64,000 bases of DNA, from assembly GCA_001880285.1 (NCBI GenBank), contig CP016269.1, forward strand, positions 1,684,501-1,748,500. The letters are read 5' to 3'. Position numbers and translations under genes: made by a program. Numbering within the stretch: position 1 is the first letter of the stretch; the number at the start of each line of letters is the position of its first letter. The notes beneath the pieces were generated by a model, which worked only from the letters and a program-made list of their open reading frames with translations, did not search any database and was not told the origin of the DNA. Below are positions 21,047 through 45,882 of the stretch, piece after piece. Source of the DNA: Flavobacteriaceae bacterium UJ101 (lineage in GTDB: Bacteria > Bacteroidota > Bacteroidia > Flavobacteriales > UJ101).

Positions 21047-24000
21047 ATGAGGAAAAAATGTACAAACATTTTGACTTTATTCATGCTATTTGTATCAACC
21101 ATGATTTTTGCACAGATACAAGTATCAGGAATAGTTAAAGACGACGCTGGAGAACCACTGCCAGGAACTTATGTTGAAAATGAAAGTGGTGAAAGTGTAG
21201 AAACCGATATAGACGGTAAATATACCATTACAGCCAATCAGGGCGAAGAATTAACCTTTAGTTTTATTGGAATGGACGATGTTGTGAAAACAGTATCAGG
21301 AAATTCGTTAAATGTAACATTGGGAATGGATGATGGAAATGTTATTGATGATGTAGTAGTAATTGGTTATGGAATTACGATGGATGAAAATGAAAAAGCA
21401 GGAGCTATTGTAACAGTAGGTTCAGATGTTTTAGAACAAAATCCAAGTACTTCTATAGATCAAGCGTTACAAGGTGAAGTACCAGGGTTAAATTTATCAA
21501 CAAATGGAGGTCAACCAGGAGCAACAAATACTGTTGTGATAAGAGGTATTGGAACTTTATCAGGTGAATCAAACCCCTTATATGTTGTAGATGGTGTAAT
21601 TCTAGGTAGAGGAGAAGATAATTCTTCTTTAGTGACTTCTTTTAATCCTTTAGCAAGTATTGATCCAAATAATATTAAAAGTGTTACAGTATTAAAAGAT
21701 GCAATGGCAACATCTATCTATGGTTCATTAGGAGCTGCTGGGGTAATTGTTGTTGAAACTAAAACAGGTCGAAAAAATCAGAAAACTAAATTTACATTGT
21801 TATCTGAAACTAGTTTTTCAGACATAGCTTTTGATGATATTAATGTATATGATGCAGAAGGATACATAAATTTATCAGCAGAAGGTCTTGTTAATGCAGG
21901 TTTTGCTGGTACAATTGCTGAAGGAGTGGATTTAGCATCTAATGTAGTTGGTTGGGATGGAACAACCAATACTGATTGGGAAGATGCTGTTCAACGTTCA
22001 ACAGGAACAATTTACTCAAATTCATTATCATTTACTGGTGGCTCTGAAAAGAGTACATTCAATGGTAGTATTGGATTATATCAAAATAAACCATTAGCAA
22101 AAGAAACACAGTTTGACCGTGTTACAGGATCATTTCGATTTAATCATGATGTTACAGATAAATTTAATATTGGATTGAATACTCAATTTTCAAACTTAGA
22201 TCTGAACACACCTTCTGATGCAAGTTCTTTTTCTAATCCGTTTTTTGCACGTTTTACAGCTTTGCCAACATCTCCAATATATAATGAAGATGGATCATAT
22301 AATACTTCATTACCAGGATTTTTACAAACTTCCAATCCTGTTGGGAATTTGGAAAAGAATTTCACAAAAGGTGAACAAATGCGTTTAATTGGAGCTTTTA
22401 ATGCTGGATATGATATTACAGATTACTTAAAATTTGATACCAAAATTTCAGGAAATTATCAGGATCTTGATGAGCGTCAATATTGGAATCCTTATTTTGG
22501 GGATGGTTTAGCTTTTAATGGTTATGGAGCTGCAAGTTCTTTGGAAGATTTTCAATGGTCTTGGACTAATTTCTTACGATTTAAAAAAGAATTTAATGAT
22601 GTACACAGTTTGAAGGTTGATGTTGGGATGGATTATTTACAAGAAACTGTGAATACTCTTTTTACTGCTGCTCAAAACTTTTCAGGAGATTTTACCTATT
22701 TAGACTCGGCAGCAGAAAAAACAAGTGCTTCAACAAATAAGTATGAAAGATCACTTGTCTCTTATATTTCCAGAGTAACATACGCTTATGATGATCGTTA
22801 TGTTGTAAATGGGTTTTTTAGAAGGGAAGGAAGTTCTAAATTAATTAATAAGTGGGATAATTTCTTTGGTGTTGGATTAACTTGGAATGTAATTAATGAA
22901 TCTTTTATGGAAAACAGTAATGTTTTAAGTGATTTAAGATTACGTGCTAATTATGGTGAAACAGGAAATGATCCGTTTTCATTTTATACTTCTTGGTATA
23001 ATGGTTTACCACAGGTATCTACAGGGTTTAATTACGGAGATAATCCAGGTTTAACATTTGAAGTGCCTGGGAATGATCAGTTAACTTGGGAAAGAACAAA
23101 ACAATGGAACTTTGGATTGGATTATGGATTTGCTAATAATAGAATTACGGGTACAATTGATTATTATATCAAAAATGGAGAAGATTTATTTGTAGAAGTA
23201 CCTCTAACACCAAGTCAAGGATTCCCTACAAATTCACAAACGGGGAATGCCGCAGATATTCGTAATACAGGTTTAGAATTTTTAATAAAAGCTAAAATCT
23301 TTAAAGGAGAAGGATTTAATTGGACAGCAACAGGTAATTTTGCATTTAATGATAATGAAATTAAATCATTACCAGATGGAGAGGATATCCAAAGAGGAAA
23401 TAAAATTCTGAGAGTAGGAGAAGAAGTAGGAATGTTTTATGATTATGGATATGCTGGTGTTGACCCATCTAATGGAAATGCTCTTTTTTATACTGATGAA
23501 ACCAAATCTGCTACTACATCGAATTTAAATGAAGCAGCTCAATTTATTCAAGGTAGATCATTACCTAAGTATACGGCAGGTTTAAAAAATAATTTATCAT
23601 TTAAAGGAGTATATATAAATACAATGTTTAACTATGCTGGAGATTTTAAAGTTTGGGATCGATGGGCATTTGTTTATGATTCTGATGGGAGTTATTCAAC
23701 CGTAAACCCTATGGTTAGAGATCATTGGACTCCAGATAATACAGATGCTAAATATCCTAAATATGTATGGGGTAATGCATCGAGAGGAAATACAGGATCA
23801 CGATATATTTATGATGGAGATTATATCCGTTTAAAAGATTTAAAAATAGGATATAAATTTTCAGATGAAATATTAGATCAAATAGGTTTGGATGCTTTAG
23901 AATTGTATGTAAGAGGTACAAACTTGTGGACATATACGTTTGATGATGACTTATATTTTGATCCAGAGAGTACTTCGAATGCATACAGTGGTGATAAATG

Positions 24001-24076
24001 GGTTGGTACGGGAGTTTATGATTTAACGTCTCCTTTATTAAAAACATATTCTTTTGGTGTTGTTGTAGGATTTTAA
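21047..24076 (+). CDS. SusC/RagA family TonB-linked outer membrane protein, unit 1
   Basis: A 1009-residue outer-membrane importer. Signal peptide to about residue 23 (MRKKCTNILTLF...FAQ). A carboxypeptidase-regulatory-like domain occupies about 24-105 (VSGIVKDDAGEPLPGTYVEN, VETDIDGKYTITANQGEELT), then a TonB-box-like DDVVVIGYG, the plug (VLKDAMATSIYGSLGAAGVI) and a 22-strand barrel ending in the terminal Phe. It acts with the SusD partner starting 12 bp downstream: SusD captures ligand at the surface, SusC imports it using TonB energy. The plug-barrel part belongs to the class that pairs with canonical SusD/RagB lipoproteins. The substrate is unknown; peptides or glycans are both possible, as no enzyme gene is adjacent. 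Confidence 0.9.
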   Translation: MRKKCTNILTLFMLFVSTMIFAQIQVSGIVKDDAGEPLPGTYVENESGESVETDIDGKYTITANQGEELTFSFIGMDDVVKTVSGNSLNVTLGMDDGNVIDDVVVIGYGITMDENEKAGAIVTVGSDVLEQNPSTSIDQALQGEVPGLNLSTNGGQPGATNTVVIRGIGTLSGESNPLYVVDGVILGRGEDNSSLVTSFNPLASIDPNNIKSVTVLKDAMATSIYGSLGAAGVIVVETKTGRKNQKTKFTLLSETSFSDIAFDDINVYDAEGYINLSAEGLVNAGFAGTIAEGVDLASNVVGWDGTTNTDWEDAVQRSTGTIYSNSLSFTGGSEKSTFNGSIGLYQNKPLAKETQFDRVTGSFRFNHDVTDKFNIGLNTQFSNLDLNTPSDASSFSNPFFARFTALPTSPIYNEDGSYNTSLPGFLQTSNPVGNLEKNFTKGEQMRLIGAFNAGYDITDYLKFDTKISGNYQDLDERQYWNPYFGDGLAFNGYGAASSLEDFQWSWTNFLRFKKEFNDVHSLKVDVGMDYLQETVNTLFTAAQNFSGDFTYLDSAAEKTSASTNKYERSLVSYISRVTYAYDDRYVVNGFFRREGSSKLINKWDNFFGVGLTWNVINESFMENSNVLSDLRLRANYGETGNDPFSFYTSWYNGLPQVSTGFNYGDNPGLTFEVPGNDQLTWERTKQWNFGLDYGFANNRITGTIDYYIKNGEDLFVEVPLTPSQGFPTNSQTGNAADIRNTGLEFLIKAKIFKGEGFNWTATGNFAFNDNEIKSLPDGEDIQRGNKILRVGEEVGMFYDYGYAGVDPSNGNALFYTDETKSATTSNLNEAAQFIQGRSLPKYTAGLKNNLSFKGVYINTMFNYAGDFKVWDRWAFVYDSDGSYSTVNPMVRDHWTPDNTDAKYPKYVWGNASRGNTGSRYIYDGDYIRLKDLKIGYKFSDEILDQIGLDALELYVRGTNLWTYTFDDDLYFDPESTSNAYSGDKWVGTGVYDLTSPLLKTYSFGVVVGF

Positions 24077-24087
24077 GATTAAACGAA

Positions 24088-25485
24088 ATGAAAATAAAAA
24101 ATATAATAGTAGGAATAATTGGGATCGCTTTATTAATAAATTGTGATTCTGAATTAGATAAATCACCTGGTACATCTTCTCTACCTGATAATGCGATAAA
24201 TACAGAAACTGATTTACAAAATGCTTTGAATGGAGTGTATAATGCATTTCAAAGAGAAGGCGTTTATGGTAAAGATGTTTTTGCTTTTGGTGTTACCATG
24301 TCAGATATTGGATTTATTAGTATCAAAAATACAAATAGATTATCAACTATAAATGATTTTACTTACACACAGTTTACAGGTGATGTTTTTGATTTATGGG
24401 ATGATTTATATGAAGTAGTTCAAACATCAAATTTTGTGATAAATAATCAAAGTCTAGCTTCTTCAAGTACAGTTGATAAGATAAAAGCCCAAGCTTATGC
24501 AGCTAGAGGATTAGCATATCTAAACTTAATAAATTATTTTGGTCAAAATTATGGAGGTATAAATCAAGAATTAGGAGTTCCAATAGAACTAGATGAAAAT
24601 GTTGGGGATGGACTTCCAAGATCAACAGTTTCTGAAGTTTATACACAAATTGAAAATGATTTATTGCAAGCAATTTCTTTGTTTGAAAGTTCAGGAACGT
24701 CGACTTCTAAAAATGAATTGACAATAGATGCTGCAAATCTTATTCTAGCAAGAACGTATTTGTATATGAAAGACTGGGATAATGCGATTACTTATGCAGA
24801 AAAAGTTAAAGCATCCTCAGGATATACTATATTATCAGGTGATCAATATGTTCAATATTGGGCAGCTGAAACGGGTGCTGAATCTATTTTTGAATTAACA
24901 TTTACTTCTTCTGATGCATTGGGAAGAAACAGTTCATTACCATACTTGCTAGATCAAGAAGTAGGATATGGTGATTTAGTTGCAAGAGCATCATTTGTAG
25001 AGAGTATGGATGATTCTGATTATCGAAAACAACTATATTCAATTGCTTCAAGAGGAGATGATCCAGAAGGATATGCTACTAGTAAATTCCCGTATGAATC
25101 AGGAGCATTTCCAATGAAAGTTTTACGTTATGCAGAAGCTGATTTTATTATAATAGAATCAAAATATCAGAAGGGAGATGAAGCAGGTGCTTTGTCAGAT
25201 TTAAATACTTTTGTAGCAAATAGAAGTACAAAAACCTATTCATCTTCAGGATCCCAATTATTGGAAGATATTCTCCTGGAAAAAGCATATGAGTTTGCAT
25301 TTGAAGGACAACGCTTTTTAGATTTAAGAAGAAATGAAAAAGAGATTGTAAAAAGTACAAACTGTGTAAATAATTGTACAATGACTTATCCTAATGATAA
25401 GTTTGCTTTACCAATACCTAACGCTGAGATTAATTCTAATAATTCAATTTCTCAAGGAGATCAAAATCCAAGTTATAATAATTAA
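24088..25485 (+). CDS. SusD/RagB family surface lipoprotein, unit 1
   Basis: A 465-residue ligand-binding lipoprotein with lipobox LLINC (Cys19). DSELDKS after the Cys is acidic, as expected for lipoproteins exported to the cell surface in this phylum. The helical repeats of the SusD fold are visible: AQAYAARGLAYLNLINYFG, LILARTYLYMKDWDNAITYAEKV, and near the end LLEDILLEKAYEFAFEGQRFLDLRR, the classic SusD C-terminal signature, then FALPIPNAEIN. It is translationally close to susC (12-bp gap) and followed by a terminator, so unit 1 is a two-gene operon. It is a canonical RagB/SusD type, unlike the partners in units 3-5. Confidence 0.9.
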   Translation: MKIKNIIVGIIGIALLINCDSELDKSPGTSSLPDNAINTETDLQNALNGVYNAFQREGVYGKDVFAFGVTMSDIGFISIKNTNRLSTINDFTYTQFTGDVFDLWDDLYEVVQTSNFVINNQSLASSSTVDKIKAQAYAARGLAYLNLINYFGQNYGGINQELGVPIELDENVGDGLPRSTVSEVYTQIENDLLQAISLFESSGTSTSKNELTIDAANLILARTYLYMKDWDNAITYAEKVKASSGYTILSGDQYVQYWAAETGAESIFELTFTSSDALGRNSSLPYLLDQEVGYGDLVARASFVESMDDSDYRKQLYSIASRGDDPEGYATSKFPYESGAFPMKVLRYAEADFIIIESKYQKGDEAGALSDLNTFVANRSTKTYSSSGSQLLEDILLEKAYEFAFEGQRFLDLRRNEKEIVKSTNCVNNCTMTYPNDKFALPIPNAEINSNNSISQGDQNPSYNN

Positions 25486-25506
25486 TAATTAAAATAATTG
25501 GTTTAA

Positions 25507-25543
25507 AAAAACCATCTCAAACTTGTTTTGGGATGGTTTTTTG
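25507..25543 (+). terminator. Terminator of susCD unit 1
   Basis: AAAACCATC pairs with GATGGTTTT and is followed by TTG and further T residues, 20 bp after the susD stop. Confidence 0.8.
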
Positions 25544-25586
25544 TGTATATTATTGTTTTGAATAATGAAATAAATGTATATAAATG

Positions 25587-25664
25587 ATCCAAATATGCAG
25601 ACAAAAAATTCAAATGTTTGGATAAATGATAAAAAAAAGCCATATTTGAGTTTTAACTCAAAAA
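25587..25664 (+). promoter_or_regulatory. Promoter and two inverted repeats of susC unit 2
   Basis: TTTG 25617-25620 and CATATTTG 25641-25648 are 20 bases apart. TTTGAGTT...AACTCAAA overlaps the -7 box and the start of transcription. A second inverted repeat, ATCCAAA (25587-25593) and TTTGGAT (25617-25623) with 23 bases between, overlaps the -33 box. The arms are about three helical turns apart. Confidence 0.65.
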
Positions 25665-25957
25665 CTAAAAATTATATGAGGACAAAGTGTACAAAAATTT
25701 TGACACTTCTTCTAGTATTTGTTTCTGCAATAATGTTTGCGCAAATACAAGTGTCAGGAGTAGTAAAAGATGCCGATGGAGAGCCACTTCCAGGAGCATA
25801 TGTAGAAAGTGAAAGTGGTGAAAGTGTGGAAACCGATGTAGACGGTAAGTATACCATTACAGCTAATCAAGGTGAAGAATTAACTTTTAGTTTTATAGGA
25901 ATGGACGATAAGGTACAAAAAGTATCAGGAAATTCTATGAATATAACTTTAGGAGTA
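25587..25957. repeat. Direct repeat, copy A (promoter plus susC 5' end, unit 2)
   Basis: From the ATCCAAA site through the promoter, start codon, signal peptide and regulatory-like domain, the sequence is nearly identical to 30210-30580; landmarks keep a constant offset of 4623 bases. Differences are scattered single bases, plus a more divergent stretch at 25598-25612. Similarity stops near the TonB box. The exact edges were judged by eye. Confidence 0.85.
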
Positions 25958-28666
25958 GGTGATGGAAACGAGATTGAAGAAACAGTTGTTGTAGGGTATC
26001 AAGTAAGAGATGAAAGAACATTAGTACAAAACGTAACTGTTGTTAAAGAAGAAGCCTTAGAAGATTTACAAGCTAATTCTCCAGGAGAAATGTTACAAGG
26101 ACAATCTTCAGGAGTTCAATATACACAATCTTCAGGAGTTTTAGGGTCAGCAGGAGTTATAAATGTAAGAGGTATTGGATCATTAACAGGAGGTACTCAA
26201 CCACTTATTGTAGTTGATGGTGTTCCGATGAATGATGGAGGAGATAGTAGTATTTCTCTTTCATTGAATCAAGGAGGAAATACAGGGTTAAATCCATTAG
26301 CTGATATAAACCCAGATGATATTGCTACATTTACTGTCTTAAAAGATGCATCAGCAACAGCTATTTATGGATCTAGAGCAGCTAATGGTGTAATTATGAT
26401 TACAACAAAAAAAGGAAGAAGGAATAAAAATGCTCAAGTTTCTATTGATTATAATAATGGTTGGTCAACAGCTACTGATTTAATGGAAATGATGTCTGCT
26501 GACCAATATAGAACGTTTAGATCAGAGCAATTAACAGCAGCAGGACGCCCAACGACTCCAGAGGATTTTAGTCAAGATGGTTTTGATTGGCCTTCAGCGG
26601 TTGAAAGAACAGGTTACGTACAAACTGTAAATGCATCAGTAAGAGGAGGAGGAGAAAGAACTTCTTATTTTATTGGTGGAACTTATAGTGATCAAGAAGG
26701 GTTTATTTTAGGTAATGAACTAGAGCGACATGCAGCTAGAGTTAATTTAGAAACTAAAGCAACAGATTGGTTAACAGCAGGTATTAATATTGCTATTAAT
26801 AATAATAAATATGACCGAGTAGGTGTTGAAAACAGTACAGCAGCACCTTTTACTTCTGCTTTATTACAAAACCCTACTGTATCACCTTATGATGATGCAG
26901 GAAACTTTGTAAATACTGGGTTCATTCAAAATGTATTAGCTTTAGAAGCTTTAGATAGAAATGTGTTAGAATCTACAAGAACGTATGGAAATACATATTT
27001 AGAATTTAGACCGCTAAAAAATCTAACATTAAAAACAGATTTCGGTATTGATCGTTTAGATCAAGAAGAAAATCAACGTCAAGTTGAGTTGAACACTCCA
27101 GGAGGATATGCAATGAATCGAGTAGTTAATTTAAATAAGTGGTTGTGGACAAATACTTTAAATTATAAATGGAAGATAGGTGACAATCATAAATTCAATG
27201 TTTTAGGGGGTATCTCATATGAAGAATCTAAATTTAGTAGAACGCTTGTAGAAGGTACAGGTTTTGTTTTAGATTCTCAAGAAAATGTTTCAGGAGCATC
27301 AGAATTTCCTACTACTGCTCATAATGTAGAAAAGTATGGATTAGTTGGATATTTTTCTAGATTGAACTATGATTTATTTGATAGATATTTTTTAGAAGGA
27401 TCAATAAGAGTTGATGGGTCTTCTAAATTTAGTGCTGATAATCAATATGGAACATTCTGGTCAGTTGCTGGAGGGTGGTTGATTTCTGATGAAGCATGGA
27501 TGGAAAATAGCTTTTTTGATAAGTTAAAATTAACTACAAGTTATGGTGTGACTGGAAATGACCGAATAGGGTATTATAGATCGTTGAGACTATATGAATC
27601 AGATCCTTATAATGGAGGTGGAGGATTAACACCAGATGTTAATAACCCAGGAAATACTGATTTGAAATGGGAAACGAGTAAAATGTTTGATGTGGGAATT
27701 CAATCAAGATTCTTAAATAATAGAATTGGTTTAGATGTCGGATATTTTAATAAAAATATTGAAGATTTAATATTGAATTTACCACTAAATACATTAACAG
27801 GGTACTCTTCTGTTTTAAAGAATGTAGGTGAAATGAAAACAAATGGATGGGAATTTACTTTAAATACGGTAAACTTTGATACAAATGATTTTTCATGGTC
27901 TACAGATTTTAATATTTCATTTATAGAAAGTGAGATAGTATCATTATCTGAAGATTCAAATTTAGATTCTGAGGGAAGAAGATATGTGGCAGGATCTACT
28001 GTTCAAAGAGCTATTGAGGGAGAATCACCAAATAATTTTTATTTGATTCGTTATGCAGGTGTAAATCCAGAAACAGGTGATGCAGAATGGTTTACAAAAG
28101 ATGGAGAGAGAACGACAACGCCTACTCAAGATGATCGTGTTATTGCAGGAGATGCACAACCTGATTTCTTTGGAGGAATTAGAAACACGCTTAAATATAA
28201 AAACTTTGATTTATCATTTTTAATGAATTTCTCATACGGAAATGATATTTATGTTAGTGGATTACGTTTTACAGATAACCCAAATGGATCATTCAATAAG
28301 AGAACAGAATTAAATAATTATTGGAGACAATCAGGAGATAATGCATATTTACCGTCTTTAAGTAGTGCTACAATTGGAACTTTTAATCAAAGATCAACAT
28401 TACAAATGAAAGATGGTTCATATTTAAGAATGAAAAACTTAACATTAGGATTTACATTACCAGATAATGTATTAGATAAAGTAAATGTATTAGATAAAGT
28501 AAGATTTTATTTTACAGCAACTAATTTATTTACAATTAAAGATTCTGAGTTAGAAGGAATAGATCCTGAAGTTACAGATGATGTAAGTGCCTTAACCCAA
28601 GGAGAAACATTTTTTACAGCACCTCAATCTAAATCATATGTATTTGGTGTGAAGGTATCGTTCTAA
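25676..28666 (+). CDS. SusC/RagA family TonB-linked outer membrane protein, unit 2
   Basis: A 996-residue SusC protein: signal peptide to residue 23 (MRTKCTKILTLL...FAQ), regulatory-like domain to about 105, TonB-box-like EIEETVVVGYQ, plug (VLKDASATAIYGSRAANGVIMITTKKG) and barrel ending KVSF. I start at the ATG 25676 because the promoter lies inside the longer upstream frame and because the other four paralogues start with the same MR(T/K) peptide. From the start to about residue 93 the coding DNA is almost the same as in unit 3, but the plug and barrel belong to another subfamily (RagA-like with a canonical SusD partner). The partner gene follows after 18 bp. The substrate is unknown. Confidence 0.9.
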   Translation: MRTKCTKILTLLLVFVSAIMFAQIQVSGVVKDADGEPLPGAYVESESGESVETDVDGKYTITANQGEELTFSFIGMDDKVQKVSGNSMNITLGVGDGNEIEETVVVGYQVRDERTLVQNVTVVKEEALEDLQANSPGEMLQGQSSGVQYTQSSGVLGSAGVINVRGIGSLTGGTQPLIVVDGVPMNDGGDSSISLSLNQGGNTGLNPLADINPDDIATFTVLKDASATAIYGSRAANGVIMITTKKGRRNKNAQVSIDYNNGWSTATDLMEMMSADQYRTFRSEQLTAAGRPTTPEDFSQDGFDWPSAVERTGYVQTVNASVRGGGERTSYFIGGTYSDQEGFILGNELERHAARVNLETKATDWLTAGINIAINNNKYDRVGVENSTAAPFTSALLQNPTVSPYDDAGNFVNTGFIQNVLALEALDRNVLESTRTYGNTYLEFRPLKNLTLKTDFGIDRLDQEENQRQVELNTPGGYAMNRVVNLNKWLWTNTLNYKWKIGDNHKFNVLGGISYEESKFSRTLVEGTGFVLDSQENVSGASEFPTTAHNVEKYGLVGYFSRLNYDLFDRYFLEGSIRVDGSSKFSADNQYGTFWSVAGGWLISDEAWMENSFFDKLKLTTSYGVTGNDRIGYYRSLRLYESDPYNGGGGLTPDVNNPGNTDLKWETSKMFDVGIQSRFLNNRIGLDVGYFNKNIEDLILNLPLNTLTGYSSVLKNVGEMKTNGWEFTLNTVNFDTNDFSWSTDFNISFIESEIVSLSEDSNLDSEGRRYVAGSTVQRAIEGESPNNFYLIRYAGVNPETGDAEWFTKDGERTTTPTQDDRVIAGDAQPDFFGGIRNTLKYKNFDLSFLMNFSYGNDIYVSGLRFTDNPNGSFNKRTELNNYWRQSGDNAYLPSLSSATIGTFNQRSTLQMKDGSYLRMKNLTLGFTLPDNVLDKVNVLDKVRFYFTATNLFTIKDSELEGIDPEVTDDVSALTQGETFFTAPQSKSYVFGVKVSF

Positions 28667-28684: not shown

Positions 28685-30100
28685 ATGAAAAAAATATTAT
28701 TCAGTATATTAACAATAGGATCATTGATGTCAATTTCATGTGATGATCAAATAGATGAACTCTCAGTTCCAGAGGATGATGTTGCTGGAGATTTAGTATT
28801 TAATTCTGAAACTGGAGCAAGAGCTGCCGTAAACGGATTATATTCAAAAATGCAAGATCCGGATGTATCTAATGGAAATGTTCAAGCTATGTCTGAATGG
28901 CAATCAGATAATGTTCGATTTGTAGGGTCCTTCCCAACATTTGTTGAAGTTTATACCTATAATACTTTGTCCAATAATACTAGTATAAATGGTATATGGA
29001 GAGATAGTTTTGAAACTATTGCGGCAGCAAACGTTGCAATTGAGAATATTCCTTTGGTAGAAGACGCTACTTTTACTGATGCGGAAAGAAATCAATTATT
29101 AGGAGAAGCAAAATTTGTGAGAGCATATGTTTATGCACAATTATTAGATTATTTTGCTCAACCATATTCACTAGATAATGGTGCTTCTTCAGGTTTGCCA
29201 ATAGTTGATTTTGTTTTTGATGGAACAAATAATGATGCATTTAACGCTTTAACAAGAAGTACAGTGAGTGAGGTAACTCAGTTTATTATAACAGATTTAA
29301 CAGAAGCAGAAGGTTTATTAGATGATAGTAGTAATGCCGTAGCATCTAAGGGTGCAGCTCAAGCAATGTTAGCAAGAATTTATTTAAATATGGATGATTA
29401 TGCAAATGCTGCAGATTATGCCACGAAGGTTATTGATAATGGTGCTTATGCTTTAGCAAGTGATTATTCTTTTTATAATACAACAGATAGAGAGTGGATA
29501 TTCACATTAGTAAACTCTTCTGAAGATAATGGTAGTACAAATGAAGGTTTTTCAGGATTATTCAATCCTACAGAAACTGGAGCTAGAGGAGATGCTCCTT
29601 TTTCTGATTATCTTATTGCATTATTTGAAGAGGAAGCTACAGATTTAAGATATACAGATTTAACGCAAACAGGTACTGATGCGTCTGGAATTTCAGATGC
29701 ATTATTTACGAGTAAATATCCTGATGGGGCAACGAAAACTGATAATGCCCCTTTAATTAGAATTTCTGAAATGTATTTAACACGCGCAGAAGCAAATGTT
29801 AAAGCGGGTAGTTCAGTAGGAGATACTCCTGATAATGATGTAAATAAAATTAGACAAAGAGCAGGTTTATCAGATTTAACGGGAGTTACTTTGGATCAAG
29901 TTTTAGATGAAAGAAGAAAAGAGTTGTGTTTTGAAGGTTTCCGAAGAATGGATTTATTAAGAAATAAAAGAAGTTTAAGACCAACAGGTGATCCACAAGA
30001 GGCTTTAGCAGCTTTTGGAGCTGATAAAACAATTTATCCAATACCTCAAAATCAAATTGATCAATCTGAAGGATCTATAACGCAGAACCCAGGATATTAA
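28685..30100 (+). CDS. SusD/RagB family surface lipoprotein, unit 2
   Basis: A 471-residue SusD-type lipoprotein with lipobox SISC (Cys19) and an acidic stretch DDQIDEL directly after it, the surface-export pattern. SusD features are AKFVRAYVYAQLLDYFAQPY, AAQAMLARIYLNMDDYANAADYATKVI, ISEMYLTRAEANVKAG and VLDERRKELCFEGFRRMDLLRN, then KTIYPIPQNQIDQSEG at the end. It is the canonical RagB/SusD type, as in unit 1, though the two are not close copies. It forms a two-gene operon with the preceding susC and ends at a strong terminator. It likely binds the ligand as a lid over its SusC. Confidence 0.9.
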   Translation: MKKILFSILTIGSLMSISCDDQIDELSVPEDDVAGDLVFNSETGARAAVNGLYSKMQDPDVSNGNVQAMSEWQSDNVRFVGSFPTFVEVYTYNTLSNNTSINGIWRDSFETIAAANVAIENIPLVEDATFTDAERNQLLGEAKFVRAYVYAQLLDYFAQPYSLDNGASSGLPIVDFVFDGTNNDAFNALTRSTVSEVTQFIITDLTEAEGLLDDSSNAVASKGAAQAMLARIYLNMDDYANAADYATKVIDNGAYALASDYSFYNTTDREWIFTLVNSSEDNGSTNEGFSGLFNPTETGARGDAPFSDYLIALFEEEATDLRYTDLTQTGTDASGISDALFTSKYPDGATKTDNAPLIRISEMYLTRAEANVKAGSSVGDTPDNDVNKIRQRAGLSDLTGVTLDQVLDERRKELCFEGFRRMDLLRNKRSLRPTGDPQEALAAFGADKTIYPIPQNQIDQSEGSITQNPGY

Positions 30101-30125: not shown

Positions 30126-30159
30126 AACCATCCTAAATTTAATTTGGGATGGTTTTTTT
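30126..30159 (+). terminator. Terminator of susCD unit 2
   Basis: AACCATCC pairs perfectly with GGATGGTT, with a T-run behind it. The stem is related to the unit 1 terminator (CCATC...GATGG), which suggests that whole units, not only the genes, were duplicated. Confidence 0.8.
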
Positions 30160-35124: not shown

Positions 35125-35138
35125 AAAAACTTTTTTCT

Positions 35139-38100: not shown

Positions 38101-38420
38101 TTGTAGCTTTAGATGCTGAATGGTATCTCAATAACGGTGGAGGTTTTGGACAAGTAGCAGAAGATTTTGTAAAAGATGCTTCATGGACACGTTTAAGGGA
38201 AGTTTCATTGTTTTATAATATTCCTAAACAAGTAATAGAATCTACAGGTTTATCAAGAATTGAGATAGGTCTAACAGGTAGAAATTTATTTTTATGGACT
38301 GATTTTGAGGGGGTTGATCCTGAGTTGAATTTAACAGGAGCTTCAAAAGGAAGAGGATTAGATTACTTTACTAACCCTGGAACAAAATCATACTTGTTTA
38401 GTTTAAAATTATCTTTTTAA
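35139..38420 (+). CDS. SusC/RagA family TonB-linked outer membrane protein, unit 4
   Basis: A 1093-residue SusC protein. Signal peptide to about residue 23 (MRTNFTKILTLLMVF...IAQ), regulatory-like domain (PLPGTYVETENGESVETDIDGRYTI is split here only by a few changes from the other units), TonB-box-like TIDEVVVSTVLG, plug (VIKGAQAAAIYGTGAANGVIIIETKKG) and barrel ending KLSF. The start is the ATG 35139; an upstream in-frame TTG falls within the promoter. It is a full-length paralogue of unit 3 and pairs with a SusD-like_2 protein 12 bp downstream. Its N-terminal module is a little more divergent than those of units 2 and 3. The substrate is unknown but probably related to that of unit 3. Confidence 0.9.
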   Translation: MRTNFTKILTLLMVFISAIIIAQIQVSGVVKDSEGEPLPGTYVETENGESVETDIDGRYTITANQGEELTFSFIGMDDKVQTVSGNTMDIVMGDEEGNNTIDEVVVSTVLGTKKKKENDLSSSTLINTETLEKAGETGIVQAMSGKTSGLKITRNNGDPGAGAFIQIRGQNTILGDGSPLIIIDGVPYSNSSVGGDVDGVAQQSRLNDLNPDDVKNVTVIKGAQAAAIYGTGAANGVIIIETKKGSKGKVKVDISSSIAVSEINVEHDKQSTFGQGLPSHYVGLSESQFGSWIANSSTSWGDYIPDRSGDADVLSIGNERFVAESGNVYYPILQKNSRNTYNGVNRDQIFRKGIAYNNNIGVSFGSDRSTTYLSYSNTDEEGIIKNSDYNRQTFRINQGVSLTDKISAKVNAAYSYITSNRIQQGSNLNGLYLGYLRTSPDFDNTDYKGTYYDSNNIPFPNSHRGYRNYLGDQANSSVPNYNAPAYNNPGWTIYEQKNDSKVNRFNITPSLKWDLRDNLSINVIYGLDYYEDKRNTFFPVNSGSSQAVGQYDYMELSEKNQFFNIFTTWNQDFSENFKLSTVVGLNFKDDEYTSSGSRVTNLINPTSDFIIPNGSSSNTNPIAINPNVGIVNGKYTQRKRKGGLYGTISADIANQLLIEVAGRIERPSTVDNNIFYPSIAAGWKFTEALGSGDFLTFGKIRASYAEIGIEPLPYLNKTSYYIGGYGSSYGDVLDSSQYGSIQRSSVQGNPDLKEERIKEFEIGTDLKFLKNRVTFQATYYNRVTEDAILPLDVPASTGYTSQYQNGAKITNKGFELDLGGTIVKTSKLKWKADLNFATNDSKVTDLLGVQSYSLNGFTGTSSRVVEGQPFGVIWGGQWARNDDGSLALDANGFAQYGQNGVIGDPNPDWTGGVSSSLEWKGFTLSALVETSQGGEMWAGTEGVLKYFGIDPETANISVAPTDLKTVDGRTISAGTRFRGNVHDFGSGLVALDAEWYLNNGGGFGQVAEDFVKDASWTRLREVSLFYNIPKQVIESTGLSRIEIGLTGRNLFLWTDFEGVDPELNLTGASKGRGLDYFTNPGTKSYLFSLKLSF

Positions 38421-38432: not shown

Positions 38433-39761
38433 ATGAAAAAAATAATAATAAATATAATGTTGGTTTGTGGATTGACTTCTTGTTCAGATTATGCTGATGT
38501 AGAGCAATATAATACAGATCCCAATAATTTCACCGACATTCCTGGAGATAGTAATATTTTGATAGGACAGTCTGAGACAGCTTTAGTAGGTTTGTTTGGA
38601 GGAGATGCTTCGAGGTTCTCAGGTGTTTTCACGAATCAATTTAATGGATGTGATCGCCAATTTGTTTCAATAAACAATTATAATGTAACTGAAAATGATT
38701 TTGAAGGTGTATGGAATGTAATTTATGCTGATGGATATGCTAATGCTCAGTTGGCACAACAAGTTGCATCTGAACAAGGAATTTATGATATAGAAGGAAC
38801 AGCCTTTATGATTCAAGGAATCTTTATGGGCGAAGCTGCAGCACTATTTGGTGATGTTCCTTATTCTCAAGCTAATCAAATTAAAACATATCCTGATCCA
38901 GTATTTGATAATCAATCAGATGTTTTTACTGGAGCTCAATCACTTTTAGACAAAGCGTTAGCTAAATTTGATCAAGGTTCAGGTGTTATAGGGGGAGAAG
39001 TTATAGCAAATCCTGAAACATCTTTAACAGGAGGTACTGCTCAGCAATTAATCCATAGTTTAAAAGCACGCTATTATTTAATTACTAAAGATTATGCGAA
39101 TGCATTGAGTGAATCTAAGAATGGTTTACCAGTAAATGCTGAATGGGAAGGATTATTTTATTCAGGTGTTAATGGTGCTCAAAATTTATATTATCAATTT
39201 AATGCAGAAAGATCTGGATATATAGGTTTATGTAATACACCATATTTATTTACATTGGTAACAGATCAATCAGCTAGATTACTTTCAACTCCAGGAGAAG
39301 TTGAAAGAGCTGCTGTTTATTTTAATGAGGAACAAGATAATTTAAATTATACTACAGAAGGAATTTTTGCACAAGATTCTTCCGTCAGCTTAATGTCTGG
39401 TATTGAAACAAAGTTAATTGAAGCTGAAGCAGCTTATAGAACTGGTGATGAAACAACTGCTACTACTGCATTTAATGAGGTGAGAGCCCAGTTAGCTACG
39501 GTTTATGGAGGAGATTTTCCTAGTACGACTTCTAGCGGTGAAACATTATTAAAAGAAATATTAGAAGAAAAATATATCTCATTAATAGGATCACCAGAAA
39601 TATTTCATGATATTAGAAGAACAAATAATCTTTTAGGTATTCCTGTTAATAGTGGGGCTGCCTTACCTGAGAGGTTTTTATATAGTTTAGCTGAATTAAA
39701 TTCTAATTCATCTGCTCCTGTTGATCCAGGTTTATTTACGAAAACATCAGTAAACCAATAG
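38433..39761 (+). CDS. SusD-like (SusD/RagB-related) surface lipoprotein, unit 4
   Basis: A 442-residue SusD-like_2 lipoprotein, lipobox GLTSC (Cys17), acidic residues soon after (SDYADVE). The shared phrases with unit 3 are SLKARYYLITKDYANALSESK, ETKLIEAEAAYRTGDETTATTAFNEVRAQL, SSGETLLKEILEEKYISL and HDIRRTNNLLGIPVNSGAALPERFLY. It differs in surface-loop length, which fits a related but not identical ligand. The gene is 12 bp after its susC and ends shortly before a terminator, so unit 4 is another two-gene operon. Confidence 0.85.
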   Translation: MKKIIINIMLVCGLTSCSDYADVEQYNTDPNNFTDIPGDSNILIGQSETALVGLFGGDASRFSGVFTNQFNGCDRQFVSINNYNVTENDFEGVWNVIYADGYANAQLAQQVASEQGIYDIEGTAFMIQGIFMGEAAALFGDVPYSQANQIKTYPDPVFDNQSDVFTGAQSLLDKALAKFDQGSGVIGGEVIANPETSLTGGTAQQLIHSLKARYYLITKDYANALSESKNGLPVNAEWEGLFYSGVNGAQNLYYQFNAERSGYIGLCNTPYLFTLVTDQSARLLSTPGEVERAAVYFNEEQDNLNYTTEGIFAQDSSVSLMSGIETKLIEAEAAYRTGDETTATTAFNEVRAQLATVYGGDFPSTTSSGETLLKEILEEKYISLIGSPEIFHDIRRTNNLLGIPVNSGAALPERFLYSLAELNSNSSAPVDPGLFTKTSVNQ

Positions 39762-39780
39762 TAACAAGTAGATACAAGTA

Positions 39781-39826
39781 AATAAGCCCTTTTTATTTAA
39801 TTATAAAGAGGGCTTATTTATTTTTT
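39781..39826 (+). terminator. Terminator of susCD unit 4
   Basis: AATAAGCCCT pairs with the stem around AGGGCTTATT (internal mismatch near the apex) and is followed by a long T-run. A further short hairpin (ACACTT...AAGTGT, about 39842-39858) follows. Confidence 0.75.
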
Positions 39827-39988: not shown

Positions 39989-40013
39989 CATATTTGAGAA
40001 TATCATAACTCAA
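39989..40013 (+). promoter_or_regulatory. -7 box and inverted-repeat operator of susC unit 5
   Basis: CATATTTG (39989-39996) overlaps an inverted repeat TTTGAG...CTCAAA whose loop is 10 bases instead of 2. No TTTG lies at the -33 position, unlike units 1-4, so activation may differ. Confidence 0.5.
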
Positions 40014-40027
40014 AAATATAATTTTCA

Positions 40028-43000
40028 ATGAGGACAAGTTTAACAAAAAAATTAACAATACTTATGTTGTTTGTAACAGGTGTATTTTATGCTCAGATAC
40101 AAGTAACAGGTATAGTTAATGATGACACTGGAGAACCACTTCCAGGTGTTTATGTAGAAAGTGCAAGTGGAGAAAGTGTAGAAACCGATATAGATGGTAA
40201 ATACACAATTGAAACAATGCAGGGAGAAAAATTAACCTTTAGTTTTATAGGATTTGATGATGTAACAAAAGATGTTACGGGGAATTCATTAAACGTAACT
40301 TTAGGGGAAGGAGCATCAGAGATTGAAACGGTAATTGTAACAGGATTAGGAGGTAAGCGCCAAGCTAGATCAATGGGATATTCGGCTGTTAAGGTAACAG
40401 GAGAAGAATTAACTGAAGTAGCAACTTCAAATCCATTGGAAACTTTATCAGGTAAAGTACCAGGAGTTGATATTTCTTCTCCGGCACAACCAGGTGCATC
40501 TACAAAGGTTATTGTGAGAGGGTTTAGTTCTATTACAGGTTCAAATAGACCTTTATATGTAGTAGATGGATCACCAATTCAGGATAATTCAGCAAGTAGT
40601 ATTGGTTCAACTAGTTCTTTTGATGCTGGTTCAGGAATTAATGATATTGATCCTAATAATATTGAAGATATTAACTTTTTAAAAGGTGCAGCAGCAACAG
40701 CACTTTATGGTTCTAGAGGAGCAAATGGTGTTATTTTAATTACAACAAAAAAAGGAAGAAATCGTTTAAGAGTAGACGTGACATCTTCTGTTGATTTTTC
40801 TGAAGTAGCTCGTGTACCACATTATCAAACACAGTTTGGACAAGGATGGGCTGGTGAAGCTTTTTCAAATGTATCAGGAGAAGGTCCAACAGCCGCTTCC
40901 AATGAGAATGGTTCTTGGGGACCAGCTTTTACAGGAACAATCAAACCTTGGGGACGTATAATTGATAATCAACAACAGATTAAACCTTATGTAGCATTAG
41001 AAGATAATATTCGTGATTTCTATGAAATTGGAAATACGTTTACAAACTCTATTACAATCTCAGGTGGAGATGATAAGTCAGATGTTGCATTAACTTATTC
41101 ATCAGTTAATTCAGATGGAGTTATTCCAACAGAACAAGATACATTTGAAAAAAGTAATATTGGAATTAATGCAGGATTAAAATATAATAAATTTAGAATT
41201 AGAGGTAGTGGTAATTATACACACAAGAATCAAAGTGCTGTACCAACTGGACAAGGTGATGATGCAGGATTTGGTAAATCTTTAATGCAAGAGATTATCC
41301 AAATGCCAAATGATATTAGTTTGGTAGATATGGAAGATCAAAATAATATTTTTAATACACCAAGTAATTTCTTTACACCTTATGCATCAAATCCATATGT
41401 AACATTAGCAAATAATAATGTTCGAATTAAGAAAGATCGTTTTTATGGAAACGTGAACTTAGGGTATGATATTACGGAAAAATTAAGTGCTAATTTTCAA
41501 ACAGGTGTGGATATTGATAACGAATCTGTGAAAAGATGGGGTGGAATAATTGAATATGCACCAGGTTCACCTCAAGATAATGCCTCAGCTAATGGTGTTG
41601 TTGGAGCTGTACAAGAAGCTAAATATACTAGAAGAGAGTATGATACTTATTTCAATTTAAATTATCTAACTGATTTGACAAGTGATTTAACATTAAATGC
41701 ATTAGGAGGTTTCTCTTATAATGAAAGAAGTGGAGATTCATTATCTGTAACAGTAACAGATTTAGATTTAGATGATTACTATGAAATAAGTAACTCGGCA
41801 GCAACTCCAACTCTGGTTCAAAGTGATTATAAAAGAAGAGTAATGGGAGTTTTTGGACAGGCAGAATTAGGATATAAAAACCGTTATTTCTTAACATTAA
41901 CAGCTCGAAATGATTGGTCTTCTACTTTGCCAACTGAAAATAACTCATATTTCTATCCTTCTGCTTCCTTAGCAGCGATAGTAGTTGATAATGGAAGTTC
42001 ATTCTTAAAATTAAGAGGAGCATGGGCTCGTGTAGGTAATGATACCAATATGTACCAAGTATATTCTACAGCAGGTCAAGCTGTGAATGATGGTTATTTT
42101 GGGTCGATTGAATATCCTTTTAATGGAATCAATGGATATGAAACCTTTGGTAGAATCGAGAACACAGATTTACAACCTGAAATTACAGATGAAATTGAAG
42201 TAGGTTTTGAAGGGAGAATCTTAAATGGAAGATTAGGTTTAGATGTAGCACTTTATAATCGTGACACAGATGGGTTAATTGTAGATTTAGCCGTTCCAAG
42301 ATCAACAGGATATTCTAATATTACAGGTAATTTTGTAGATTTAAGAAACAGAGGTATTGAATTAGCTTTAACAGCTAAACCTGTTAAATCTGAGAATTTT
42401 AACTGGGATTTAACGTATACATTTACAAAAAATGATAGTGAAGTATTAGATGTTGTTGGGGATGAATCTAAGATTGGTATCTATAGTGCTTATAGTACAC
42501 AGTTTTATGCAGAAGTTGGAAAGCCATTAGGAACTTTTTATACTCCAGGTCCAGCTATGACTGATGCAGGTCAATATATTGTGAATCCAAATAATGGATA
42601 TTATGTAGAAGATGGTTCAGAACAATATGCAGGTAATTCTCAACGTGATTTTGTTATGGGGTTACGTAATGTGTTATCTTATAAGAATTTCAGATTAGCT
42701 ATGAGTTTTGATTGGAAACAAGGTGGAGAAATGTATTCTTATACAAAACGTTTAAGTTATTTTGTTGGAAATGGTATTGAAACGACGTATAATGATCGTA
42801 ATCCATTTATTATTCCAAATTCAGTTGTTGATAATGGAGACGGTACCTATTCTGAAAATACAACGCCTGTTCAATTTGGAGATGTTACAGCTTTTTATAA
42901 TGCATCTCAAAATCCAGCAATTGAGAAGCAACATATCATTGATAAGACTTTTGTAAGAATGCGTGATTTATCATTGAGTTATAAATTACCAAGTCGTTTA

Positions 43001-43195
43001 TTAGAAGGAACAGGTTTACGTAATATAATGTTCTCGATTTATGGGAAGAATTTATTCTTATGGACTCCTGATGAAAATCCATACGTAGATCCAGAAGCAA
43101 CAAGTTATGGTAGAGGTATTCGAAGTGAATTTGGTGAATTTGCTGCTAATCCAACACAAAGAACTTATGGATTTAATGTAAAATTATCATTCTAA
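40028..43195 (+). CDS. SusC/RagA family TonB-linked outer membrane protein, unit 5
   Basis: A 1055-residue SusC protein. Signal peptide MRTSLTKKLTILMLFVTGVFYAQ, regulatory-like domain to about residue 105 (the most divergent of the five: KYTIETMQGEKLTFSFIGFDD), TonB-box-like EIETVIVTGLGGKRQ, plug (FLKGAAATALYGSRGANGVILITTKKG) and a barrel ending KLSF. The plug-barrel part is of a third subfamily, distinct from units 1-2 and 3-4. It heads a four-gene operon: a SusD-like partner 18 bp downstream and two further lipoproteins. The extra lipoproteins suggest a larger surface complex than in the other units. The substrate is unknown. Confidence 0.9.
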   Translation: MRTSLTKKLTILMLFVTGVFYAQIQVTGIVNDDTGEPLPGVYVESASGESVETDIDGKYTIETMQGEKLTFSFIGFDDVTKDVTGNSLNVTLGEGASEIETVIVTGLGGKRQARSMGYSAVKVTGEELTEVATSNPLETLSGKVPGVDISSPAQPGASTKVIVRGFSSITGSNRPLYVVDGSPIQDNSASSIGSTSSFDAGSGINDIDPNNIEDINFLKGAAATALYGSRGANGVILITTKKGRNRLRVDVTSSVDFSEVARVPHYQTQFGQGWAGEAFSNVSGEGPTAASNENGSWGPAFTGTIKPWGRIIDNQQQIKPYVALEDNIRDFYEIGNTFTNSITISGGDDKSDVALTYSSVNSDGVIPTEQDTFEKSNIGINAGLKYNKFRIRGSGNYTHKNQSAVPTGQGDDAGFGKSLMQEIIQMPNDISLVDMEDQNNIFNTPSNFFTPYASNPYVTLANNNVRIKKDRFYGNVNLGYDITEKLSANFQTGVDIDNESVKRWGGIIEYAPGSPQDNASANGVVGAVQEAKYTRREYDTYFNLNYLTDLTSDLTLNALGGFSYNERSGDSLSVTVTDLDLDDYYEISNSAATPTLVQSDYKRRVMGVFGQAELGYKNRYFLTLTARNDWSSTLPTENNSYFYPSASLAAIVVDNGSSFLKLRGAWARVGNDTNMYQVYSTAGQAVNDGYFGSIEYPFNGINGYETFGRIENTDLQPEITDEIEVGFEGRILNGRLGLDVALYNRDTDGLIVDLAVPRSTGYSNITGNFVDLRNRGIELALTAKPVKSENFNWDLTYTFTKNDSEVLDVVGDESKIGIYSAYSTQFYAEVGKPLGTFYTPGPAMTDAGQYIVNPNNGYYVEDGSEQYAGNSQRDFVMGLRNVLSYKNFRLAMSFDWKQGGEMYSYTKRLSYFVGNGIETTYNDRNPFIIPNSVVDNGDGTYSENTTPVQFGDVTAFYNASQNPAIEKQHIIDKTFVRMRDLSLSYKLPSRLLEGTGLRNIMFSIYGKNLFLWTPDENPYVDPEATSYGRGIRSEFGEFAANPTQRTYGFNVKLSF

Positions 43196-43213
43196 TTTAA
43201 AATTAATAAAGAG

Positions 43214-44653
43214 ATGAATAAAAAAATATTAGCATTGATTTTCACAGGAGCATTAGTTTTTAACTCATGTGATGAACAATTAGATATAAATAAAGATCCC
43301 GATTTATTGGCACCAGAGGCGGTTCCTTTAAATTCACAGATGCCAGCAGGTGTAACGGGAGTTGCAGCTTCAGCAGGATCTTATTACGCTTTAATAGGTG
43401 GTTTTTGGAGTCAATTTTGGACACAAAGTGCTGTAGCAAATCAATATAAACAAATAGATGATTATTCTATTAATAGTGGAGATGGTATGGTTAACGGGAG
43501 TTGGTCTTCTATGTATGATGCTCTAACAGACATACGTTCTGTAAAAGCAAATGCAGAAACTGCTGAAAACTGGAATTATTATTTAATGGCAACGGTTATG
43601 GAAGTATATGCTTCTCAAATCTTAGTAGATTTTTACGGATCTATTCCGTATTCTCAAGCAAATGATCCGGCTAATTTAGATCCAGAATTTGAATCAGCTG
43701 ATGTAGTTTATGATTTAATGGCTGCCAATTTGAATACAGCATTAGCAAAAGATTTATCAACTTCAAGTATTGATGTAATTCCAGGGAGTGATGATTTCAT
43801 TTTTGGAGGTGATATGACAAAATGGACACAGTTTGCAAATACGTTATTATTAAAAGTTTACTTAAGACAGTCTGAAGTAAGGCCAAGTGTGGCTGAAGCA
43901 GGTGCGAAAACGTTATTGGCAAAAAATAACTTCTTGATGGAAAGTGCAGCTATTACACAGTTTATTGATGAAGCGAATAGAAGTAACCCTTTATATGAAA
44001 CAGATAGAAGACAATTAAATGTTGGAACCAATTTAAGAGCTAGTACAACATTAGGATCTTTCTTAGATCAAAATGCTGATCCAAGATTAGCAAAATTCTA
44101 TGATGGAACAACATTTCAAGATCAAGGAGATTTTGATCAAGGTTCTGGTAGTGCTTCAGTTGTAATATTAAGTGCTACAGATCCAGTATATTTTATCTCA
44201 GCAGCTGAAAGCTATTTCTTGCAAGCAGAAGCAGATTTACGTTATAATGGTGGAAGTAATGCGCAAACTTTATATGAAGAAGGTGTAAAAGCAGCCTTTG
44301 CTCAATGGGAATTGGATGCCACAGATCTATTAGCAGGAGCGTACGCATATCCAGCAGGTACTGAAGATGAAAACATAGAGGCTGTTATTACTCAAAAATG
44401 GATTTCATTCTTTCCAGGAAATGGTTATGAAGGATTTATTGAGCATAATAGGACTAATTATCCGATGGAAACAACAACGGCACAATCAGATCCTACTTAT
44501 ATTCCAGGACAATTTGCTTATTCTGTTGAGGGAACCACAGGAGGAGCTTTTCCAAGGAGATTAGAATATTCTCAACAGGAAAGACAACGTAATTCTAATG
44601 CGCCAACTACTTTACTTCCAGTTACGGAAAAAGTATGGTATGATGCTAACTAA
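43214..44653 (+). CDS. SusD-like (SusD/RagB-related) surface lipoprotein, unit 5
   Basis: A 479-residue SusD-like_2 lipoprotein with lipobox VFNSC (Cys19) and DEQLDINKDPDL after it. Motifs include NSQMPAGVTGVAAS, WNYYLMATVMEVYASQILVDFYGSIPYSQAND, FANTLLLKVYLRQSE, ISAAESYFLQAEADLRYNGG and NIEAVITQKWISFFPGNGYEGFIEHNRTNYP, then EYSQQERQRNSNAP at the end. These phrases are typical of nutrient-binding partners of RagA-like importers. It is followed after 12 bp by a further lipoprotein gene. It belongs to a different branch from the unit 3 and 4 partners. Confidence 0.85.
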   Translation: MNKKILALIFTGALVFNSCDEQLDINKDPDLLAPEAVPLNSQMPAGVTGVAASAGSYYALIGGFWSQFWTQSAVANQYKQIDDYSINSGDGMVNGSWSSMYDALTDIRSVKANAETAENWNYYLMATVMEVYASQILVDFYGSIPYSQANDPANLDPEFESADVVYDLMAANLNTALAKDLSTSSIDVIPGSDDFIFGGDMTKWTQFANTLLLKVYLRQSEVRPSVAEAGAKTLLAKNNFLMESAAITQFIDEANRSNPLYETDRRQLNVGTNLRASTTLGSFLDQNADPRLAKFYDGTTFQDQGDFDQGSGSASVVILSATDPVYFISAAESYFLQAEADLRYNGGSNAQTLYEEGVKAAFAQWELDATDLLAGAYAYPAGTEDENIEAVITQKWISFFPGNGYEGFIEHNRTNYPMETTTAQSDPTYIPGQFAYSVEGTTGGAFPRRLEYSQQERQRNSNAPTTLLPVTEKVWYDAN

Positions 44654-44665
44654 AAATTAAAAAAG

Positions 44666-45385
44666 ATGAAGAAATTATTAATATTAATAAGCTCAGCATT
44701 ATTAATTTATTCTTGTGCAGATGATGATACTAAAAATGTATCGAGTGTAACAAGTTATCCAATTGTTGAAGTGGTTGGAGATGCTGTAACTTTAGTGCCA
44801 TTTGGAGATACTTATACTGATGAAGGTGCTATTGCAACAGAAGGTGGAGTAGAAATTCCAGTAACAACAACAAACTCTGCAGGAGTGTACTGGTCAGCTG
44901 CAGGAGTTGATACTAATTCTCCTGATAAATATACTGTAACGTATTCTGCAACAAATTCTGATGGATTTGATGGTACAGGATTACGTGATGTTTGGGTAGC
45001 CAATACTGGAGATTTAACATCAAATATTGAAGGATTATATTTATCTTCTGTTCAAAGAGTAGGAAGTGATAGTCATTCTGATTTACAATATGTTATTATA
45101 AGAAGTCTTGGTGGCAATCAATATGAATTGTCTCATGCAGTTGGAGGATACTATGATATGGGTAGAGCATATGGATCTGGATACGCTGCTCGAGGAGCTG
45201 AAATCACAGCTAATGATATTGCAACAAATGATTTTTCAGTAACTAATGCACAATTTCCAATTTGGGGGAATATAGTTGAAGTTACAGAATTTAAGGTTGA
45301 TGCAGCTGCAAAAACAGTAACGTATATTGGTACTGGTGATTGGGGCTCTGCTTTTGAGGTGACATTAACTCAAGTACAATTATAA
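44666..45385 (+). CDS. Surface lipoprotein with Ig-like (DUF5011-like) domain, unit 5
   Basis: A 239-residue lipoprotein: lipobox LIYSC (Cys17) followed by ADDDTKN, an acidic surface-export-like stretch. Residues about 30-110 resemble the Ig-like DUF5011 family (PIVEVVGDAVTLVPFGDTYTDEGAIAT, YTVTYSATNSDG). The C-terminal half (about 115-239) is a beta-rich domain seen in accessory lipoproteins of SusCD loci, with no catalytic motif I can see. It lies 12 bp after the SusD-like gene and 17 bp before the next lipoprotein gene, so it is part of the unit 5 operon. A role as an extra surface ligand-binding or spacer protein is inferred from context. Confidence 0.65.
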   Translation: MKKLLILISSALLIYSCADDDTKNVSSVTSYPIVEVVGDAVTLVPFGDTYTDEGAIATEGGVEIPVTTTNSAGVYWSAAGVDTNSPDKYTVTYSATNSDGFDGTGLRDVWVANTGDLTSNIEGLYLSSVQRVGSDSHSDLQYVIIRSLGGNQYELSHAVGGYYDMGRAYGSGYAARGAEITANDIATNDFSVTNAQFPIWGNIVEVTEFKVDAAAKTVTYIGTGDWGSAFEVTLTQVQL

Positions 45386-45402
45386 TTAAAAATTAAAACA
45401 AT

Positions 45403-45882
45403 ATGAAATACATAAAAAATATAGCTATAAGTTTAGCAACGTTGGTATGGTTTGTTTCTTGTGATGAAGGAGGAGATCCAGATCCAGGTGGAACATCAAC
45501 AGAACAATTAGCAGGAGATTGGTATGTAGAAACGTACTTAGCTGATGGTACTAAAGCGCAAGATTATGCTTTATGGTCAACATATAATACTGCAGCTAAT
45601 GATGGGACTTTATGGGTAGATGATCAGAATCATACTTTTGGATTGAAAGCTAAAGCTCAAACTTCTGGATTAGCATTTTCTGCTTCAAATGCTGAAAATA
45701 TTAACAATGAAGGAACTACTGTTACTATTACAGACGGAGAGGTGCTAAAAGGTGTTGCAACTACTTCTGGAGGTAATGTGTCAGATAGTATATATTTAAA
45801 AGTTGAAGTAAGTAATTCTCCAGGAACTGTTTATGAAGTTAGAGGTTATAAACGTACTGGTTTTGCTGAAGATGAGCATTAA
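45403..45882 (+). CDS. Small lipoprotein, possible lipid-binding-like (Lipid_bd) family, unit 5
   Basis: A 159-residue lipoprotein with lipobox FVSC (Cys20) followed by DEGGDPDPGG. The mature part opens QLAGDWYVETYLADG and has GTLWVDDQNHTFGLKAK and ITDGEVLKGVATTSGG, then EVRGYKRTGFAEDEH. This lipocalin-like beta pattern resembles small proteins called Lipid_bd in other SusCD loci, but similarity is judged by memory. It is the last gene of the unit 5 operon and is followed by a terminator. Function is unknown; surface exposure is likely. Confidence 0.55.
   Translation: MKYIKNIAISLATLVWFVSCDEGGDPDPGGTSTEQLAGDWYVETYLADGTKAQDYALWSTYNTAANDGTLWVDDQNHTFGLKAKAQTSGLAFSASNAENINNEGTTVTITDGEVLKGVATTSGGNVSDSIYLKVEVSNSPGTVYEVRGYKRTGFAEDEH

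Follow-up and report, generated by a model that had tools for sequence, protein, structure and literature searches.

The stretch analysed (the window; 64,000 nucleotides, positions 1684501-1748500 of the 3.07-Mb single-contig genome of Flavobacteriaceae bacterium UJ101) carries, directly downstream of rimP-nusA-infB, an array of five tandem susC-susD units. The array is predicted from its sequence to encode five TonB-dependent importers of the 'pedal-bin' type, each a SusC barrel with a SusD lid. All five susC genes begin with a common 5' module, and the barrels behind it belong to at least four separate SusC lineages; the trees of the N-terminal immunoglobulin (Ig)-like domain (NTE) and of the barrel are incongruent. 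The explanation regarded as probable, taken as a whole, is that five importers are kept after rimP-nusA-infB, with barrels of different origin behind one resident front module.

The susC genes lie on the forward strand at 21047-24076 (susC1), 25676-28666 (susC2; reading frame open from 25574), 30299-33607 (susC3), 35139-38420 (susC4) and 40028-43195 (susC5); the starts of susC2, susC3 and susC4 were set by the shared leader. The common module consists of a leader of about 60 nt, a signal peptide and the N-terminal domain, and ends abruptly at about codon 98-99. Over the first 98 or so codons (signal peptide and NTE) the other four genes are 66-92% identical in protein to unit 2. The barrels are about 30% identical to one another, with the exception of units 3 and 4 (51-53%). 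Direct repeats of 300 nt (about 300-400 nt) are present at the 5' end of every unit, with 73-95% identity. Between about -75 and codon 98 the DNA identity of units 2 and 3 is 84-100%, and beyond that point it falls to about 55%; the synonymous divergence (dS) of this pair is 0.18 in the NTE and 0.84 in the barrel, where sites are near saturation. The NTE dS of the other pairs is 0.48-0.94; exchange between these, if any, is therefore old. In direct comparison the four top NTE matches of each unit are the other four array units, and the next-best are two non-array SusC of the same genome. In the NTE tree, based on 80 alignment columns only, the five array units and one other SusC of the genome form a set with 100/99 support, and the likelihood improves when the five units are constrained together. 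Silent partial copies of the module are absent elsewhere in the genome. Deletion of the NTE abolished growth on levan in Bacteroides thetaiotaomicron (PMC7782687).

Relatives of the barrels were sought in 396 genomes of the order. The family of strain UJ101 is represented there by one genome; recent events are therefore not visible, and distances are at the family level. The best barrel match of every unit belongs to another family (39, 52, 52, 57 and 61% identity for units 1-5): a family here designated f5 for unit 1 (38-39%) and unit 5 (60-61%), genomes G290 (52%) and G205 (48%) for unit 2, G205 (52%) for unit 3, and G137 (57%, against 51% to unit 3) for unit 4. Constraining the five barrels together costs 2129 log-likelihood units and is rejected by the approximately unbiased (AU) test (p 4e-43); although the tree comes from a quick search with LG+G4, a simpler model, the margin is very large. 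Even a sister relationship between the barrels of units 3 and 4 is disfavoured (p-AU 0.033). The relatives are patchily distributed, those of unit 2 being found in 3 of the 396 genomes and those of unit 5 in 14 (own genome included; strict E cut-offs).

The site after infB is common to two families, and its content changes. The upstream neighbours rimP-nusA-infB (16247-20800, forward strand) are conserved, and in f5 they are directly followed by enzyme-less SusCD units: one in G148, G079, G018, G030, G048 and G346, two in G286, G143 and G004, three in G056, G350 and G181. Barrels of the unit-1 type occur at this site in G148, G079, G286, G143, G350, G181 and G056; in this family-level comparison relatives of unit 1 stay at infB, but as the first, second or third unit. 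Relatives of units 2-5 have other locations: next to rnhB, or in the stretch from fusA-rpsG to rarA. No SusCD unit directly follows infB in the sampled genomes of families f2, f3, f7, f8, f13, f14 and f15, most of which have a cytochrome operon there instead. A preliminary description of the window had proposed a repertoire of importers, and had named the same five units, unchanged in all relatives, as the contrary outcome. The comparison at order level agrees with a repertoire: five units here, one to three in f5, patchy relatives, and no constant set of five. Neither the common 5' module nor the linkage to infB had been noticed in that description.

The leaders of the array contain a candidate promoter and a palindrome. 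The skeleton TTTG-N20-CATATTTG precedes units 1, 2 and 3 (20990-21021, 25617-25648 and 30240-30271, forward strand; pattern search), with 3 matches in 64 kb against 0.08 expected. Only variants of it precede units 4 and 5, so that the claim of a separate promoter for every unit is supported for the first three. Promoters of the Escherichia coli sigma-70 type are not enriched; the Bacteroidota consensus was therefore used (TTTG at -33, TAHHTTTG at -7, transcription starting 4-5 nt later; PMC6847099). The palindrome TTTGAGTT-N2-AACTCAAA precedes susC in units 1-3, with the centre CT at 21018-21035 (TTTGAGTT-CT-AACTCAAA) and TT at 25645-25662 (TTTGAGTT-TT-AACTCAAA), and at 30268-30285. It is degenerate in unit 4 (TTTGGGT-ATAATAA-ACTCAAA, 35105-35125; stem retained via a G.U pair) and has a wider loop between the arms TTTGAG and CTCAAA in unit 5 (39993-40014). 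The pattern TTTGAGN{1,16}AACTCAAAAA has 4 matches in 3.07 Mb, every one before an array susC (control 0), and the palindrome is absent in front of the six non-array susC genes of the genome. It was rejected as a general flavobacterial leader, because in 245 further genomes of the order a near-identical pattern does not exceed the control. The variable loop in units 4 and 5 and the G.U pair in unit 4 fit an RNA hairpin; should CATATTTG be the -7 element, however, the left arm would lie outside the transcript, contrary to such a hairpin. Known RNA families are absent from the window.

In f5 the leader consists of TTTG, a spacer of about 20 nt holding GTTAA-N5-TTAAC, and CATATTTG, the distance from the beginning of the palindrome to the start codon being about 50 nt. 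Most units within an f5 array have 78-93% identity over the 60 nt upstream, against 49-56% in distant coding DNA. The f5 pattern has 15 exact copies in 9 of the 12 f5 genomes (control 0), all 47-56 nt before a susC start and 14 of them at infB; it is absent from genomes of f1, f3 and f14. The TTTG-N20-CATATTTG skeleton is thus common to f5 leaders and array units 1-3. Each family has a different palindrome, but in either case it is placed at the promoter, suggesting a dedicated regulator. The only f5 copy away from infB, the second of genome G018 (L210:5959-10477), precedes an enzyme-less SusCD pair beside apparent phenylacetate-degradation genes.

The interval from the end of infB (20800) to the start of dnaG (46159, opposite strand) contains exactly five susC-susD pairs, arranged head to tail at 21047-45882; the open reading frames (ORFs) and domain scans agree with the gene positions first described and with five complete pairs, the last with two more lipoproteins. 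All five SusC have Plug and CarbopepD_reg_2 domains; the SusC/RagA model TIGR04056 is passed by units 3 and 5 in the NCBIfam scan and by all five in the genome search, so that each is a SusC/RagA-type barrel with plug, signature and NTE. A SusD-family lipoprotein adjoins each of them: susD1 at 24088-25485 (PF14322, PF07980), susD2 at 28685-30100, susD3 at 33619-34926, susD4 at 38433-39761 (PF12771) and susD5 at 43214-44653. Lipobox cysteines were read directly from the translations. Pfam SusD models recognise SusD 1, 2, 4 and 5; SusD3, by itself slightly under its Pfam cut-off, is 44% identical to SusD4, and a joint SusD3/SusD4 profile built with relatives matches solved SusD structures. Spacing is 11-18 bp between SusC and SusD and 190-266 bp between units. 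A terminator-like hairpin follows each of the five units (25506-25542, 30126-30154, 34971-35001, 39776-39823 and 45904-45933), as had been reported. All these features are on the forward strand.

Neither ORFs nor domain scans reveal a carbohydrate-active enzyme (CAZyme), peptidase, extracytoplasmic function (ECF) sigma, anti-sigma or two-component gene between infB and dnaG, which confirms the lack of degradative and regulatory genes noted earlier. The locus has neither of the two marks of a polysaccharide utilisation locus (PUL): CAZymes with susCD, and a linked hybrid two-component, ECF or SusR-type regulator. Glycan enzymes are present at four of the six other susC loci of the genome (GH2 with sulfatases; GH16; GH13; GH20 with a histidine kinase and a response regulator), so the lack of enzymes is specific to the array locus. 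The other two are a pair beside polA (L028), likewise enzyme-less, and L029, whose enzyme content is ambiguous. Composition gives no mark of recent arrival of the array units.

Unit 5 most likely imports oligopeptides, as judged by homology. SusC5 resembles BT2264 of B. thetaiotaomicron over its full length (PDB 5fq6, 5fq7 and 5fq8; E 1e-214), SusD5 resembles BT2263 (5fq4/5fq6; E 3e-43), and the following genes encode a BT2262-like surface lipoprotein with Ig-like domain (44666-45385; Pfam and homology) and a BT2261-like lipoprotein (Lipid_bd, PF12888; 45403-45882). Gene order is identical to BT2264-2261, and the two extra lipoproteins are therefore known partners of a BT2264-type importer, not an unusual addition; units 1-4 consist of susCD only and do not have this four-gene layout. 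Oligopeptide import by the BT2263-2264 pair is reported in the part of PMC10132118 consulted, which cites Glenwright 2017. The oligopeptides would derive from proteases encoded elsewhere. Unit 5 differs from BT2264-2261 in being one of five units, with a leader and an NTE common to four unrelated barrels. SusC1 and SusC2 resemble RagA, and glycan SusCs are matched about equally well; the best guess for units 1-4 is peptides or other small nutrients. Related small ligands for all five, such as oligopeptides, had been suggested at first. For unit 5 this is in line with homology; for the array as a whole it is not supported, as the barrels trace back to at least four separate SusC lineages.

The preferred explanation may be put as follows. 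Unit 1 would descend from a SusCD unit already at the infB site in an ancestor common with f5, and units 2-5 would have come from separate SusC lineages sited elsewhere in other families. On each susC a resident front module, comprising a leader with promoter and palindrome, a signal peptide and the NTE, would have been placed or kept by recombination between tandem 5' ends, through gene conversion or unequal crossover. With matching 5' ends, barrels of differing origin would share expression, export and, here, the NTE. A single factor that acts in trans on the palindrome could control all five units, the common NTE could couple them to the same energising machinery, and transport would proceed by the known SusCD lid mechanism. 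Several observations weigh against this explanation. CATATTTG lacks the nearly invariant first T of the -7 element and has C for T (PMC6847099), and units 4 and 5 depart from the palindrome. Noncoding homology is strong for units 2 and 3, and weak for the pairs 1/4 and 1/5. The likeness of the NTEs may stem partly from selection within the genome, and SusCs in other flavobacterial genomes (G325 and G205) are also more alike at the 5' coding end than in the barrel. The link of unit 1 to f5 consists of 38-39% identity and position; since the NTE is missing from f5 SusCs, simple inheritance from a common ancestor at the infB site does not explain the module as a whole.

Much of this anatomy would also be expected from plain tandem duplication, in which a single SusCD unit gave rise to four copies, with rapid divergence of the barrels and an NTE conserved by purifying selection: the units are head to tail, the leader is shared, and units 3 and 4 are 51-53% alike. 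The barrel tree refutes such an origin for the five as a whole, since monophyly is rejected and the nearest barrel to that of each unit is found in another family. An older duplication is possible for units 3 and 4, disfavoured though they are as sisters; as the general explanation, duplication is highly improbable. Convergence or co-evolution without exchange of DNA, by which incoming barrels were selected to match the TonB and the translation start of the cell, agrees with the next-best NTE matches being non-array SusC of the same genome and with the suggestion that the NTE selects among TonBs (PMC7782687). Against it stand the noncoding leader and palindrome, which the array units likewise share and the six other susC genes lack, and the silent sites shared by units 2 and 3 up to a sharp breakpoint; it is considered unlikely.

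Two further alternatives concern function. The units might be five glycan importers with their enzymes encoded elsewhere, as in dispersed PULs. For SusC1 and SusC2 the match to glycan SusCs is about as good as that to RagA, and a survey of 964 Bacteroidetes genomes, in the part consulted, puts susCD loci without CAZymes at about half of the total (PMC6499787); unit 5, however, resembles the peptide-binding BT2263-2264, and four other susC loci of the genome carry their own enzymes, which leaves this a rather doubtful reading. A locus of antigenic or phage-receptor variation, with units switched on and off to alter the surface, has a precedent in SusC/SusD regions of gut Bacteroides that are phase variable by DNA inversion (PMC10939037), and the direct repeats at the 5' ends could recombine. 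Those invertible loci share with the array repeats at SusC genes and a possible repertoire. The array differs from them in that no inverted arrangement, partial cassette or recombinase was seen in or beside it, long inverted repeats not having been searched exhaustively; the five units are on one strand, complete, terminated and preceded by candidate promoters, and silent module copies are absent from the rest of the genome. Antigenically variable surface proteins, the other possibility raised in the preliminary description, are therefore not upheld and appear most improbable.

Tandem and enzyme-less susCD loci have already been catalogued, so the category is not new. The array has directly adjacent susCD pairs on one strand, as do the trsusCD loci (Lapebie et al. 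2019, PMC6499787); in the sections of that survey consulted, tandem susCD make up about 3% of loci, CAZyme-less loci are common, and trsusCD are described as larger-than-average PULs with position-conserved clades. Linkage to infB, a shared leader and incongruence of NTE and barrel were not found in those sections. In Flavobacterium collinsii, enzyme-less runs of three and of two adjacent pairs are listed outside bona fide PULs, with substrate unknown (PMC10132118, consulted in part); they belong to another genus, and leaders are not described in the portion consulted. RagAB of Porphyromonas gingivalis is likewise an enzyme-less susCD-type pair and an oligopeptide importer (PMC10132118, PMC11817032, both consulted in part), and SusC1 and SusC2 are RagA-like; RagAB is described there as a single locus with four alleles, whereas the array has five different units side by side. 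Full-text search, weak evidence of limited coverage, returned no paper naming infB, susC and susD together. The new part is the infB site, the shared leader and the incongruence of module and barrel.

Other SusCD sites and neighbours were recorded. Enzyme-less SusCD pairs adjoin rnhB (ribonuclease HII) in several families, for example those of unit-5 type in f5 (L174, L179, L182, L183, L184, L192), suggesting a second recurrent SusCD site. In f3 the stretch from fusA-rpsG to rarA holds differing types, of unit 3/4 and of unit 5 (L176, L177, L178, L180, L185), which gives it the look of an exchange site. The BshC-like and LysM proteins encoded downstream of the infB array in f5 are found in strain UJ101 beside a SusCD-SusE-amylase locus instead (L027:3169-6600). 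The neighbours of another enzyme-less SusCD pair of this genome (L028:9688-14423) are polA and genes for aromatic amino acids; the NTE of this pair ranks among those closest to the array. Within the window, 230-1021 encodes a TrmH/SpoU-type rRNA methyltransferase-like protein (by eye), homologues of which adjoin SusCD pairs in f3 genomes (L177, L178, L180, L185), and 54364-56031 is an ORF of 555 aa without Pfam match at E 1e-5.

Tentatively, the infB-SusCD site may be a modular acquisition locus in at least two families, where foreign barrels are joined to a front end already in place, made up of promoter, palindrome and signal peptide and here also of the NTE, and one dedicated regulator would drive a varying group of importers, unlike in PULs with their logic of one regulator for one substrate. 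Lacking enzymes, such susCD loci have no assigned substrate; a conserved site and a shared leader let a co-regulated class of them be recognised. The site allows one to ask what such importers take up, and how a cell adds an importer without building a new regulator. The array is also a natural experiment on the NTE.

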